The notes beneath the pieces are model-generated. The model was not told where the DNA came from. It did no database searches and was given only the letters and a program-made list of their open reading frames with translations. A stretch of 11,416 nucleotides of DNA. It comes from Deltaproteobacteria bacterium (GTDB taxonomy: Bacteria > Myxococcota > UBA796 > SXON01). This document shows, one piece after another, positions 1 to 11,064 of this stretch (within the stretch, counting starts at the first letter, position 1; each line of letters starts with the position of its first letter). Position numbers and translations under genes: made by a program. The stretch covers positions 1 through 11,416 of the forward strand of contig CANKNP010000160.1 in the NCBI GenBank assembly GCA_947483545.1. The letters run 5' to 3'.

Positions 1-179
1 AAGGCGGCACGAAGTGCGCGCCTTCAAAGCTGGCTCCCGTGTTTGCGTCTCGGGCGGGAACGGCGCGGTAGCGCCGGACCCGGCCGAATCGACGCGAACA
101 CAAGCCCGCGGATGCGGGCGTTCTTGGCCAACACTGGCCGATGCGCCCGGCCCGCGCCCTCGCGGGGCGGGAGAATCGG
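1..179 (-). repeat. 179-bp structured dispersed repeat, copy 1
   Basis: Read on the minus strand, this stretch aligns without gaps to 10694-10872, with about 11 differences in 179 positions (about 94% identity). The central 70-odd bases are identical. Its hairpins are at 151-166 (stem CCCGCG, four-base loop), 126-139 and 104-119, with two mutually exclusive stems at 73-84 and 62-75. A possible enclosing stem pairs 93-101 with 39-47. The left edge of the window cuts the element inside its terminal inverted repeat. The homology stops sharply at 179. Several reading frames run open through it, but none resembles a known protein. Confidence 0.9.
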
Positions 180-641
180 CGAACAGGGAGACCGCGCGAC
201 GGGGTTCGTACATGGGCGCGAGTATAGAGAAAATGCGGGGGATCGGCCAGTGCTGTTCTGGAAATGTACGGGCTACGAGCTACGAGGAGCGGGCTGCGGG
301 CTGCGGGCGCAACTCCGACGTGGCAACCCTCGAAACGGGGGGCGAAGCCCCGCCGATCCGCGCGCTCGGCGAACCTCGCTCGCGGCTCGGCGGTCTCTTT
401 GCACCGTTCCTACCGGTGGAATGCGACGGTCCGGCGAAGACGCCGGGCCCGCCGCCTTCCACCTGGAACGGTGCGGGTGGGGGCCAGCCCGGCTCCAGGT
501 CAAGTCCTTCCAGTGACTTAGGACGTTGCTGTTTGCGCAGCGCCCGGGCTGCCCCCCGCCGGGTCGATGCTCAACCGCACCCGAGCCGGGTCCCGGCGAC
601 GGCGGGTACTCCCGCCGAGGACGGGTATGCGTTCGTTTGCC
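180..641. other. gene-free spacer with short repeats
   Basis: I find no convincing gene here; the open frames are GC-rich, mutually overlapping and unlike known proteins. The spacer holds a small 7-bp tandem motif (GGGCTGC, 291-308), also found in the 5.9 kb spacer, and a hairpin repeat at 590-631. On the minus strand AGTATA at 221-226 reads TATACT, a good -10 box, seven bases before an ATG at 213-211. No matching -35 is visible, and the frame from that ATG runs straight into the 179-bp repeat, so a gene is not supported. Confidence 0.6.
590..631 (+). repeat. 42-bp hairpin repeat, decayed copy
   Basis: It matches 6082-6123 at 39 of 42 positions. The core is an inverted repeat (592-606 against 611-625) around a TACT loop. 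All three differences from the other copy fall in the stem and break pairing there, so this copy looks degenerate. It lies 17 bases beyond the stop of the minus-strand toxin gene, so it could act as a weak transcription end, but no T-run follows. Confidence 0.75.
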
Positions 642-5870: not shown

Positions 5871-6166
5871 GGCCGGGGGCTAACCTGAAACGGTGGGGGA
5901 CGGGTGGGTAAGGGTACGGGCTGCGGGCTGCGGGCTGCGGGCTGGGACCCGGGCGGGCGGGGCTACGGGCTGCGGGCTGCGGGCGGGGCGAAGCGCCGAG
6001 GACGAACCAGGAGAATCCACCACGGAGACATGGAGACACGGTGGGGACCCCTGAACCGGGGGCTTGGCCCCCGCAGCCGATGTCCCGGCGTCGGCGGGTA
6101 CTCCCGCCGACGCCGGGTATGCGCTCGTACCGGAGCGCACCCGTAAGAAAAGGACTGAGCAAACAC
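5871..6166. other. gene-free spacer built from short repeats
   Basis: There is no believable gene. The stretch is a patchwork of small repeats: GGGCTGC units in tandem at 5918-5944 (almost four) and 5967-5984 (about two and a half); a duplicated GGAGACA motif near 6024-6039; a G/C hairpin with 7-bp arms at 6057-6073; and the 42-bp hairpin repeat at 6082-6123. The divergent promoters for ppdK (minus) and possibly holB (plus) must lie in or near this spacer, but I cannot point to a good match. Confidence 0.6.
6082..6123 (+). repeat. 42-bp hairpin repeat, intact copy
   Basis: Positions 6084-6098 and 6103-6117 are perfect 15-bp inverted repeats (CCCGGCGTCGGCGGG as left arm) around the loop TACT. 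The same sequence with three pairing-breaking changes is at 590-631, including the shared tail GGGTATGCG. This makes it a dispersed palindromic unit of REP-like type rather than a one-off hairpin. Confidence 0.85.
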
Positions 6167-6235
6167 CCGGCCCGCCGATCTCCACGGGCGGTCCTCGGCC
6201 CGCTCGGAAGCCGCGGCGGACGCGCGGAGCCCGCC
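6167..6235 (+). repeat. 69-bp direct repeat, left copy
   Basis: It aligns without gaps to 6495-6563 in the same orientation, with five differences in 69. The right edge is 10 bases from the stop of the Fic remnant. Shared landmarks are CGATCTCCACGGGCGGTCC and CGGAGCCCGCC. A weaker relative of its first 20-odd bases may be present near 443-467. Confidence 0.85.
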
Positions 6236-6494: not shown

Positions 6495-6563
6495 CCGGCC
6501 CCCCGATCTCCACGGGCGGTCCACGGCCCGCTTGGAAGCCGGGGCGGACGCCCGGAGCCCGCC
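6495..6563 (+). repeat. 69-bp direct repeat, right copy
   Basis: Same orientation as 6167-6235, with five substitutions and no gaps. It ends 30 bases before the holB start codon, so it may carry part of the holB upstream region. The Fic homology begins directly at its left edge. Confidence 0.85.
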
Positions 6564-8521: not shown

Positions 8522-10204
8522 GTGCCCCGCCCCATCCGCCTCGGCCAATCCTCGTTCACCCAACTCCGCGAGGAGGGTGGGTACTACGTGGACAAATCCA
8601 GCTTCGTCTCCGAGGTGCTGACCGCGCCGATGCAGGTCGCCCTGTACCCCCGGCCCCGGCGCTTCGGCAAGACGCTGAACATGACGATGCTCCGCGCGTT
8701 CTTCGAGATTGGACCCGACCGCAGCGGGCTTTTTGAGGACCTGTCCATCTGGAAGGACGTGGAGGCGTGCACGCACTTTCAACGGCACCCGGTGATCTCG
8801 CTCACGTTCAAAGACGTCGTGGAGCCTACCTGGCCGGAGGCGCGGCGGGCGTTGAACGCCCTGCTCTCCGCCGAGGTCGAGCGCCATGCGGCGGCAGTGG
8901 CGGATCCGCGGGTTCCTCCGGGGCTCCGGGCTCGCCTGGAGGCGGTGATCGCCGGGACCGACCACCAGGGCCGTGTGCTGCTGGACTTGTGTCAAGCCCT
9001 GGAGATTCACCACGGGGAGAAGGCAATCCTGCTGATCGACGAGTACGACGCCGTCGTGCTCACCGCCTGGGACCTGGGGTACTACGACGAAGCGGTGCTC
9101 TTTTTCCGGAGCCTCTTGTCGAGCGGGCTCAAGGGAAACGACTGGCTCTTTCGCGGGGTGATGACCGGCATTTTGCAGTTGGCGCGGGAGTCGATGTTCT
9201 CCGGGCTCAACAATGTGGAGGTCTACTCGTTGCTGAAGAATCGGGCGGACGAGCAGTTTGGGTTCACCGAAGATGAGGTGATCGGTGTGTTGGGGGAGTT
9301 CGGCCGGTCGGAGGAAGCAACGGAGGTTCGGGATTGGTACAACGGCTATCGATTCGGGAGGGCAACCGTGTACAACCCGATCTCGATCATGAGCATGTTG
9401 GCGTATCCTGACGAGCCACTGTTGCCGTACTGGCTCAATACTTCCGCGAATCTCCTGGTGCGCAAGTTGTTGCTGGCGCACATGGAGATCGATGCGGGCG
9501 TGGCCATGCTGCTCGGTGGCGGCAGTGTCGAGAGCCAGATCCAGGAGGAAGTTCCCCTTCGAGATCTGAACGGCAGGCACGTTTGGGGGCTGTTGTTGTT
9601 CTCGGGCTACTTGCGGGCGGAAAACGTGCGCGTGGAGGAAGCACGCACTTTCGCAGACCTTCGCATCCCCAATCGGGAAGTGCGTGGGTTGTGGCAGGAT
9701 ACTTTCTCGGGCTGGCTGGAGCAGCAGGCCGGTAGCGTAGAGCCCCTTCACCGCGCCGTCTTGACCGGCGACGCCCCCGCGGTGGAGGAAATCCTCCAAA
9801 CAATGTTGCTCCGGCACGTCTCCTTTCACGACACCGCAGCCAATCAGGACGAAGCATTTTACCATGCCTTCGTGCTCGGATTATTGGTGACCCTGGAGAA
9901 ATCCCACGCGGTTCGCTCCAACCGGGAGTCTGGCCGCGGCCGGCCGGATCTCTTGATCATCCCGAAGCGGCCCGGGCTGGCGGGCGTGGCGTTGGAGTTC
10001 AAACGCCGACAGCGCGTGAGGGTCAAGATAGGGGAGCCGCAACCGCCGCCGGCCGAGGGGGAGCTGGAGGGGTTGGCAAAGGCGGCATTGGAGCAGATCC
10101 AGGATCGGGCGTACGTCACCGAGCTGGAGTCGGCAGGTGCCGCGCCCATCTGCCGGCTTGGGATTGCGTTTTCGGGGCAGGATGTGGTGGTGCGGGGGGA
10201 GTGA
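8522..10204 (+). CDS. predicted AAA-ATPase / PD-(D/E)XK nuclease fusion protein
   Basis: This 560-residue protein has the two-part build of the AAA-ATPase-like (PF09820) plus PD-(D/E)XK nuclease (PF08011/DUF1703) family. The N-terminal part opens with the family signature SFTQLREEGGYYVDKSSF, then a Walker A variant RPRRFGKT (44-51) and Walker B ILLIDEYD (169-176). Mid-protein blocks RGVMTGI (211-217) and DWYNGYRFG (271-279) with YNP (284-286) are also family marks. The C-terminal nuclease motif is RPDLLI (Asp476) followed by ALEFK (Glu492, Lys494). The family is widespread, highly amplified in some genomes, and of unproven function. The start is GTG with only a weak AAAGG upstream. It lies 87 bases after tatD. 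Frequent TTG leucine codons contrast with tatD and suggest transfer. All motifs appear intact. Confidence 0.9.
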   Translation: MPRPIRLGQSSFTQLREEGGYYVDKSSFVSEVLTAPMQVALYPRPRRFGKTLNMTMLRAFFEIGPDRSGLFEDLSIWKDVEACTHFQRHPVISLTFKDVVEPTWPEARRALNALLSAEVERHAAAVADPRVPPGLRARLEAVIAGTDHQGRVLLDLCQALEIHHGEKAILLIDEYDAVVLTAWDLGYYDEAVLFFRSLLSSGLKGNDWLFRGVMTGILQLARESMFSGLNNVEVYSLLKNRADEQFGFTEDEVIGVLGEFGRSEEATEVRDWYNGYRFGRATVYNPISIMSMLAYPDEPLLPYWLNTSANLLVRKLLLAHMEIDAGVAMLLGGGSVESQIQEEVPLRDLNGRHVWGLLLFSGYLRAENVRVEEARTFADLRIPNREVRGLWQDTFSGWLEQQAGSVEPLHRAVLTGDAPAVEEILQTMLLRHVSFHDTAANQDEAFYHAFVLGLLVTLEKSHAVRSNRESGRGRPDLLIIPKRPGLAGVALEFKRRQRVRVKIGEPQPPPAEGELEGLAKAALEQIQDRAYVTELESAGAAPICRLGIAFSGQDVVVRGE

Positions 10205-10365
10205 GAGGCACAGGCGCAGACTTTTCGCACGCCTGACTTTAGATTAGACACTGCGTAGGGGCGGCCCCCTGTGAGCCTGGGAAACAACGTGCCCGACGTC
10301 GAACGGAAGCCGTTCCCGGAAGGCAGGAGGAAAGGAAGCGACGAAAAATGTCGGAAGAAAGCTCC

Positions 10366-10464
10366 CAGCAACCGAACTCCCCGAGCGCGCCCAAGCTCTT
10401 CGAGATCGGTTGCCCACAGCAACCGAACTCCCCGAGCGCGCCCAAGCTCTTCGAGATCGGTTGC
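10366..10464 (+). repeat. palindromic 48-bp unit, duplicated with 51-bp period
   Basis: 10366-10413 and 10417-10464 are identical over 48 bases with three bases between. Each unit is itself an imperfect palindrome: GCAACCGA at one end faces TCGGTTGC at the other, with further CTC/GAG pairing inside. It looks like a doubled REP/MITE-like unit. A plus-strand frame reads it as repeated QQPNSPSAPKLFEIGC, probably by chance. Confidence 0.85.
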
Positions 10465-10515: not shown

Positions 10516-10693
10516 TCGCCCCATCAAATGGATGGCCCCTTTGTCATCCTGGTGCAGTCCGCGATCATTCTCCGACCGGCTCACTGCCGTTGGCCACGAT
10601 CCTGAGCGTGGCACGGCGATTGCTTGACCCCGCTCGATCTCGAGATCTCCGATGTGTTCCCCGCCGTCCCTTCACCTGCCTGAGCCAGCCTCC

Positions 10694-10872
10694 CCGATTC
10701 TCCCGTCGCGCGGGGGCGCGCGCCGGGATTATCGGCCAGTGTTGGCCAAGAACGCCCGCATCCGCGGGCTTGTGTTCGCGTCGATTCGGCCGGGTCCGGC
10801 GCTCCCGCGCCGTTCCCGCCCGAGGCGCAAACACGGGAGCCAGCTTGGAAGGCCCGCACTTCGTGCCGCCTT
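10694..10872 (+). repeat. 179-bp structured dispersed repeat, copy A (full length)
   Basis: It is the inverted counterpart of 1-179. Stems visible in order: H1 10707-10722 (CGCGCG, loop GGGG), H2 10734-10747 (GGCCA/TGGCC, loop GTGT), H3 10754-10769 (GCCCGC/GCGGGC, loop ATCC), and two alternatives that share bases, H4 10789-10800 and H5 10798-10811 (GGCGC/GCGCC, loop TCCC). A longer stem may pair 10772-10780 with 10826-10834 (one mismatch) and enclose H4/H5. The element ends in a long hairpin starting at 10835. Confidence 0.9.
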
Positions 10873-10886
10873 CAAAGCTGGCTCCC
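10835..10886. repeat. 19-bp-arm hairpin joining copies A and B
   Basis: Left arm 10835-10853 and right arm 10868-10886 are complementary over 19 bases with one mismatch. The 14-base loop contains its own small stem, GCAC/GTGC (10856-10859 with 10863-10866). The right arm runs straight into copy B. Copy 1 begins inside the equivalent structure at the window edge. Confidence 0.85.
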
Positions 10887-10998
10887 CGATTCTCCCGTCG
10901 CGCGGGGGCGCGCGCCGGGATTATCGGCCAGTGTTGGCCAAGAACGCCCGCATCCGCGGGCTTGTGTTCGCGTCGATTCGGCCGGGTCCGGCGCTCCC
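10882..10998 (+). repeat. 179-bp structured dispersed repeat, copy B (truncated)
   Basis: It is identical to 10690-10806 over all 117 bases, at a spacing of 192. It contains H1-H4 but breaks off inside H5, losing the right side of the enclosing stem. It is followed by a degenerate piece resembling the terminal arm (CGCCTTCCATTCTGGCTCCC) and a small CCCC/GGGG stem at 11016-11027. Perfect identity means recent duplication or gene conversion. Confidence 0.9.
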
Positions 10999-11064
10999 CG
11001 CCTTCCATTCTGGCTCCCCGAGCGGGGTGTTGGAAAACACACACCTGCCCTGCGCAGTTCACCC

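Follow-up and report, generated by a model that had tools for sequence, protein, structure and literature searches.

An 11,416-nucleotide stretch of DNA from a member of the Myxococcota (Deltaproteobacteria bacterium; GenBank assembly GCA_947483545.1, contig CANKNP010000160.1), hereafter the window, carries a repeat whose two long copies differ by a base-pair swap within a predicted hairpin. In a preliminary description, this repeat was presented as a structured RNA or single-stranded DNA element. The question raised by the locus is what kind of element preserves its pairing while its sequence changes, and whether such a swap is the mark of an RNA gene. The repeat, designated A/1/B after its copies, is best read as a narrowly distributed member of the multi-hairpin repeat families of this Myxococcota genome, of which there are at least two. 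With a probability of about 0.6, we regard it as a non-coding, non-autonomous multi-hairpin DNA repeat that spreads as DNA and whose pairing is kept by selection and/or by template switching.

Copies and Extent of the Repeat

Positions 1-182 of the minus strand align without gaps to positions 10691-10872 of the plus strand over 182 bp, with 12 differences. An ungapped alignment of 1-179 (minus) with 10694-10872 (plus), with about 11 differences, had been claimed previously and was confirmed, 11 differences falling within the 179 bp. As to the extent first given, 10694-10872, the repeat is real, but its unit continues to 10886, since the last hairpin has its right arm past 10872. In addition, a third copy (B), absent from the preliminary description, has 117 bp identical to A. 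The copies are the following:

10694..10886, plus strand: copy A, full unit (the range first given, 10694-10872, extended by the last hairpin's right arm)
10883..11018, plus strand: copy B, head-to-tail with A; truncated, with an internal deletion
1..182, minus strand: copy 1, cut inside the last hairpin by the start of the window

The A/1 unit is about 193 bp long, consists of five contiguous hairpins and is able to form head-to-tail arrays. Among the five ORFs crossing the A/1 repeat, no Pfam family was found above the cut-off (one sub-threshold match, E 0.07), and PADLOC gave no match. Two known-domain ORFs of the window may be mentioned here: an ORF of the PemK/MazF-like toxin family at 642-1037 on the minus strand (PF02452) and, upstream of the A/B array, a predicted AAA-ATPase and PDDEXK_9 nuclease protein at 8522-10204 on the plus strand (PF09820, PF08011).

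The A/B array has a composite history. Between A and B the core (10882-10998) shows no difference in 117 positions, and the right arm shows 3 in 23 (p = 0.004); therefore, the locus is a mosaic and not a simple recent duplication. The mosaic right arm of B leads us to infer that copies have recombined here. The edges of the units are marked by an octamer:

10690..10697, plus strand: CTCCCCGA, left edge of A; two further occurrences, one where A meets B (10882) and one at B's right edge (11014)

This octamer is found elsewhere in the window too (7972, 10377, and 10428), and its occurrence at the A/B edges as a possible target-site duplication concerns one locus only, the right edge of copy 1 lying outside the window. 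No terminal inverted repeats were found, since 9 of 30 positions match when one end is compared with the reverse complement of the other. A 51-bp direct tandem (96%) at 10361-10462 is partly self-complementary and also contains the CTCCCCGA of the A/B array edges.

Fold of the Unit and Differences Between Its Copies

The five hairpins of the unit, numbered on copy A, are:

10694..10735, plus strand: H1; GGGG loop in A; carries the 10708-10721 swap; outer pairs compete with H2
10734..10747, plus strand: H2; GGCCA-GTGT-TGGCC
10754..10769, plus strand: H3; GCCCGC-ATCC-GCGGGC, then TTGTGTT; terminator-like consensus match in all three copies
10772..10834, plus strand: H4; long interrupted stem; loop TCCC in A, TACC in copy 1
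10835..10886, plus strand: H5, the terminal hairpin; GGGAGCCAGC...GCTGGCTCCC

The view of the repeat as a structured element was borne out by its folding energy, as none of 200 dinucleotide shuffles was as stable as the plus strand of A (z -7.9), the minus strand of A (z -8.6), or copy 1 (z -5.8). The four-base loops that had been described throughout are present in four of the five hairpins, but the loop of the last one has three bases in the predicted fold.

The H1 swap itself was verified: the partners G10708-C10721 in A correspond to C-G in copy 1. Also as previously stated, the other H1 difference (10713) is located in a loop, as is the difference at 10804. In the minimum free energy structure of A, 4 of the 129 paired columns differ between the copies, compared with 8 of the 53 unpaired columns (Fisher p = 0.006). 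The four comprise the two columns of the swap, a change in the pair 10781-10825 (T-G in A, T-A in copy 1), and position 10728, the only one that breaks its pair. When the differences were placed anew with their spacing preserved, none of 362 placements from A to 1 was as stable as copy 1 (1 of 362 for broken pairs); from 1 to A, 8 of 362 were as stable as A (24 of 362 for broken pairs). With a base-matched random null, the corresponding energies were reached in 1 of 1000 (plus strand) and 0 of 1000 (minus strand) cases from A to 1, and in 16 of 1000 (plus) and 78 of 1000 (minus) from 1 to A; for broken pairs, the figures were 0 of 5000 and 489 of 5000, respectively. The proposal that substitutions spare pairing is thus upheld by these two-sequence tests, more weakly for the base-matched null from 1 to A. 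The structure-sparing effect is real, clear from A to 1 and weaker from 1 to A, and concerns two sequences only.

Search for Further Copies of A/1

Of 282 genomes sampled from the phylum to which a Myxococcales MAG belongs, 279 have a match to HolB, the five nearest being 67–73% identical. Exact 18-mers of A/1 were found in one stretch of a collection of genome contigs, a 20-bp match taken as chance, and in none of the viral contigs; plasmids and phages yielded no A/1 match. At the protein level, two peptides pieced together from the six frames of A/1 had no match at E ≤ 10 (12 and 111 candidates). Used as a DNA query, A/1 gave in 22 genomes of the family three matches of 27–44 bp at E ≤ 1e-3, each over long mechanical ORFs, and in 63 genomes of the order just one of these same three at E ≤ 1e-5. 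A 23-mer pattern run against 377 Myxococcota genomes found one match with one mismatch, and a reversed control pattern found matches in two genomes. Finally, a covariance model of A/1, whose sole positive control was the window itself, which it does recover, gave nothing at E ≤ 0.5 in the 22 genomes. No convincing further copy of A/1 was found in the searched genomes of the host's order, and three copies are known, all in one window.

Q1, a Second Multi-Hairpin Repeat in the Window

A second repeat family, Q1, was first seen in a relative (G097) when four relatives were sampled for interspersed repeats of low folding energy. The window contains one copy, 166 bp away from copy 1:

349..556, plus strand: Q1 copy, second multi-hairpin repeat (blastn with a G097 copy; nhmmer profile)

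This copy shares 70.6% identity with a Q1 copy from G097 over 214 blastn columns (E 9e-15) and is found at E 2.7e-23, over positions 2-206, by an nhmmer profile of 54 copies from which the window copy was left out (E 1.2e-32 with the window copy included).

The distribution of Q1 is patchy. A covariance model of 54 copies (31 from the relative G229, 22 from G097, and the window copy) was searched against 60 genomes of the order; matches numbered at least 58 in G229, where every scored candidate matched, 49 in G097, 8 in G105, and a single one in G113, the remaining 56 genomes giving none. This search ran under strict filters and with a ceiling of 58 scored candidates per genome. Profile matches with distinct interiors number 44 in G097 (22 full-length) and 62 in G229 (32 full-length), some of which may be opposite-strand readings of palindromes. 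The G105 copies have a different middle hairpin but retain the two ends and the arms of the terminal hairpin (by eye). Another relative, G133, has no Q1 match; among the interspersed repeats in a 236-kb sample of its genome, those inspected proved to be coding, simple, or a shared contig end.

The Q1 unit measures 208 bp and has sharp ends in 30 G097 loci, where the flanks differ from copy to copy (by eye), the exceptions being a contig end or an adjoining unit. Enough flank was available for 50 full-length copies. In 20 of these, an end motif belonging to another unit is found at one edge (six-base criterion); according to a crude GC3 rule, the remaining 30 comprise 23 copies between gene-like ORFs and 7 inside one. 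Head-to-tail arrays are also formed, with units 203–204 bp apart in 11 of 15 loci and other spacings in two further loci, most of the 15 having been picked for adjoining matches already seen. For the 30 flank pairs, the mean shared length was 2.73, compared with 2.16 for shuffled pairs; three pairs share 6 bp (0.36 expected) and the other 27 share 0–5 bp, so that no clear target-site duplication is present. The orientation of the genes neighboring Q1 in the relatives is mixed (+E+ 7, -E- 6, +E- 3, -E+ 3, and four with one neighbor only).

Pairing and Covariation in Q1

The numerous copies of Q1 allow a broader examination of pairing. Only full-length copies were aligned; the set used for covariation consisted of 349-556 plus 53 copies from two relatives, with one locus carrying a deletion (L235) left out, and 31 pairs make up its consensus fold. 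A covariation signal is favored here both by a structure taken from these very sequences and by shuffles that ignore relatedness; with this bias, standard pairs occupy 97.4% of 1672 cells (91.0% in shuffled alignments), 12 of the 31 pairs show changes in both partners (7.5 shuffled), as do 100 cells (37.8 shuffled), and the covariation score is 0.230 (0.123 shuffled; at most 0.055 for slid alignments), none of these values being reached in 500 shuffles. A fifth measure, that of further pair types, was weaker (29 of 500).

In G229, the arms of a copy pair better with each other than with the arms of other copies (0 of 2000 shuffles for P2b, P2c, and P3, and 31 of 2000 for P2a), in a test that is noisy, as the pattern mislocated 10 of 31 left terminal arms. 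The terminal stem of G097 gave no arm-pairing signal (1635 of 2000) because this stem barely varies. At least 3 of 32 G229 copies join the two main arm types of one stem and so break it. Tree-aware covariation on a MAFFT alignment of 55 Q1 copies yielded nothing at E ≤ 0.05. Within helices, the best pairs had E 31 and 36, and the helices contain 2 of the 30 top-ranked pairs, where 0.08 would be expected; the test loses power because the MAFFT alignment seems, by eye, to place the terminal arms one base out of register. Taken together, pairing in Q1 is kept as its sequence changes, the evidence being strong against shuffles and slid alignments, with no pair from the tree-aware test.

Relation Between A/1 and Q1

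The A/1 unit does not contain the interior of Q1, and the likeness between the two is weak and confined to the ends. In fact, Q1 profiles did not detect A/1/B at E ≤ 10, and the Q1 covariance model gave no convincing A/1/B match (best overlapping E 0.66). When matrices built from the ends of 54 Q1 copies were run along the window, the left end of A ranked 28 of 11405 plus-strand positions, that of copy 1 ranked 19 of 11405 on the minus strand, and the right end of A ranked 26 of 11404; the right end of B only ranked 125. For both ends of A and for the left end of copy 1, moving the matrix by a few bases gives no better score. Jointly, the left and right ends of A rank 51 of 22528 placements on both strands of the window. 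Judging from these end sequences, common descent of A/1 and Q1 is possible. An improbable extension of this idea would make A/1 and Q1 branches of one gene-less selfish superfamily, in which the ends and the terminal hairpin would be kept and the interior hairpin modules swapped, and which would multiply by way of a single-stranded stage (DNA or RNA), either circular or concatemeric, giving 204-bp arrays without clear target duplication, like bacterial rolling-circle non-autonomous elements.

Comparison With Known Repeat Families

The closest likeness is to the stem-loop sequences (SLS) of bacterial genomes, characterized as repeated, mostly intergenic, and of common predicted secondary structure (PMC2267715). 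A/1/B has three copies with a common fold in one window, and Q1 is multi-copy, with 23 of 30 single copies intergenic. On the basis of that SLS description, and not of family models, the repeats reported here are set apart by a longer chain of contiguous hairpins and by their head-to-tail arrays. REP sequences are described in PMC3733652 as palindromes of 20–40 bp, most with an unpaired GTAG or CGTC at one end. REPINs consist of two inverted REPs mobilized by a RAYT, and hairpin-based mobility has been proposed for them (PMC3733652, PMC3116915). The present repeats resemble REP/REPIN elements as these sources portray them, i.e., palindromic, extragenic, often high-copy, and with some species-specific families. 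Unlike a REP, the A/1 unit has about 193 bp, no GTAG is common to its copies (none in A or B, and in copy 1 on the opposite strand only), and the CGTC common to all three copies sits within the H4 stem. A classification of A/1 as REP was discarded, since it failed on the length and the unpaired motif of this description (PMC3733652).

A search of Rfam 15 with the window gave nothing at the gathering score. The best match (34.5 bits against 52) was to the Streptomyces sRNA Scr3202 (RF02833) on the minus strand, over the H5 hairpin and part of B; being under the gathering score, it was rejected as an identification and looks like generic hairpin similarity. MITEs and ERIC-, RUP-, or BOX-like repeats are short, non-coding, and interspersed, BOX being also modular. 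A/1 and Q1 are likewise short, non-coding, and interspersed; in contrast to MITEs, A/1 has no terminal inverted repeats and Q1 has no clear target duplication. No family was recognized as these multi-hairpin repeats in the literature consulted.

Origin and Maintenance of the Pairing

A transcribed structured RNA (a 3′ UTR element, a terminator cluster, or a small RNA) selected for its RNA fold is the strongest of the alternatives, although we consider it unlikely. It would account for the covariation of Q1, for the terminator-like H3 in all three copies, and for the location of copy 1 and A, 460–490 bases downstream of a same-strand known-domain ORF (the PemK-like one ending at 642 on the minus strand and the PDDEXK one ending at 10204 on the plus strand, respectively). 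Against an RNA stand the lack of an Rfam match, not only at the gathering score in the window but also at E ≤ 0.1 in three loci with Q1 copies (L116, L187, and L213), the mixed orientation of neighboring genes, and the patchy distribution of Q1. A strand asymmetry of wobble pairs was also considered as a sign of the transcribed strand. With one choice of pairs there were 13 G.T cells against 99 A.C cells, and the column pairs stood at 17 against 8 (by eye; binomial p 0.11). With symmetric choices, the G.T and A.C events were 14.7 and 13.0 in G229 and 16.6 and 11.0 in G097, the cells being 120 against 114 and 116 against 53, respectively. The asymmetry is lost once the pairs are chosen symmetrically, and therefore gives no pointer to a transcript.

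The swap by itself is not proof of selection on an RNA, because template switching could yield the same swaps. Template switching has been found to perfect imperfect palindromes in E. coli (PMC7202029), and switching between hairpin arms has been proposed as a source of compensatory changes in PMC8794818, which calls its part in maintaining short stems less clear. If this were the whole explanation, the repeats would be plain quasi-palindromes, in which template switching during replication creates and perfects hairpins with neither function nor mobility, and the swap would be a mutational by-product. The absence of strand asymmetry agrees with such an origin, as do the G229 copies (at least 3 of 32) with a stem broken by mixed arm types. 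However, it leaves unexplained both the presence of one sharp-ended unit of 208 bp at dozens of places in two genomes and the head-to-tail arrays, and we judge it less probable than a transcribed RNA. Degraded insertion sequence ends, or a MITE of a classical transposase, are the most doubtful of all, for although CTCCCCGA is present at each A/B unit edge and three Q1 flank pairs share 6 bp, the repeat lacks terminal inverted repeats, 27 of the 30 flank pairs share only 0–5 bp, and the Y1 transposase (PF01797) does not track Q1 in 10 relatives, having no match in the Q1-rich G097 and matches in G133, G214, and G147, where the Q1 covariance model found none.

A multi-hairpin DNA repeat remains the preferred reading. 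The repeats would spread and recombine as DNA, probably by way of a stage, single-stranded or circular, where the hairpins play a part. Selection for this folded form, template switching and conversion between arms, or both, would preserve their pairing, and a role of H3 as a terminator or 3′-end structure in transcripts may be a by-product. No mobilizing enzyme was identified. If this reading is right, some myxococcal genomes hold dozens of multi-hairpin units that have no genes and keep their pairing despite sequence change. These would serve as a natural experiment with many copies, in which selection on folding could be told apart from the mutational perfecting of hairpins, and would give a chance to seek an undescribed route of spreading without an encoded enzyme. 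They also carry a warning, namely that compensatory changes in repeats do not by themselves prove an RNA gene.

Other Repeats in the Window and in a Relative

A second structured interspersed repeat exists in G097 (L099:11340-11500 and L146-L175; 52 match rows), and its modules are also found apart (about 14-76 and 78-151 of the query). Locus L146 contains, away from its repeat copy, a sub-threshold match to the twister-sister ribozyme at 2637-2719 on the minus strand (27.3 bits, gathering score 34, E 0.016).

Two other repeats are present in the window. An intergenic repeat of 69 bp (6167-6235 and 6495-6563; 93% identical) has CCGCCGAT near its start (CCCCCGAT in the second copy), as in Q1; a second swap between its copies, similar by eye, was rejected, as the differences are not structure-sparing. 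Finally, a 47-bp repeat is found at 590-636 and 6082-6128, one copy of which forms a perfect 15-bp hairpin and the other a hairpin with three mismatches.
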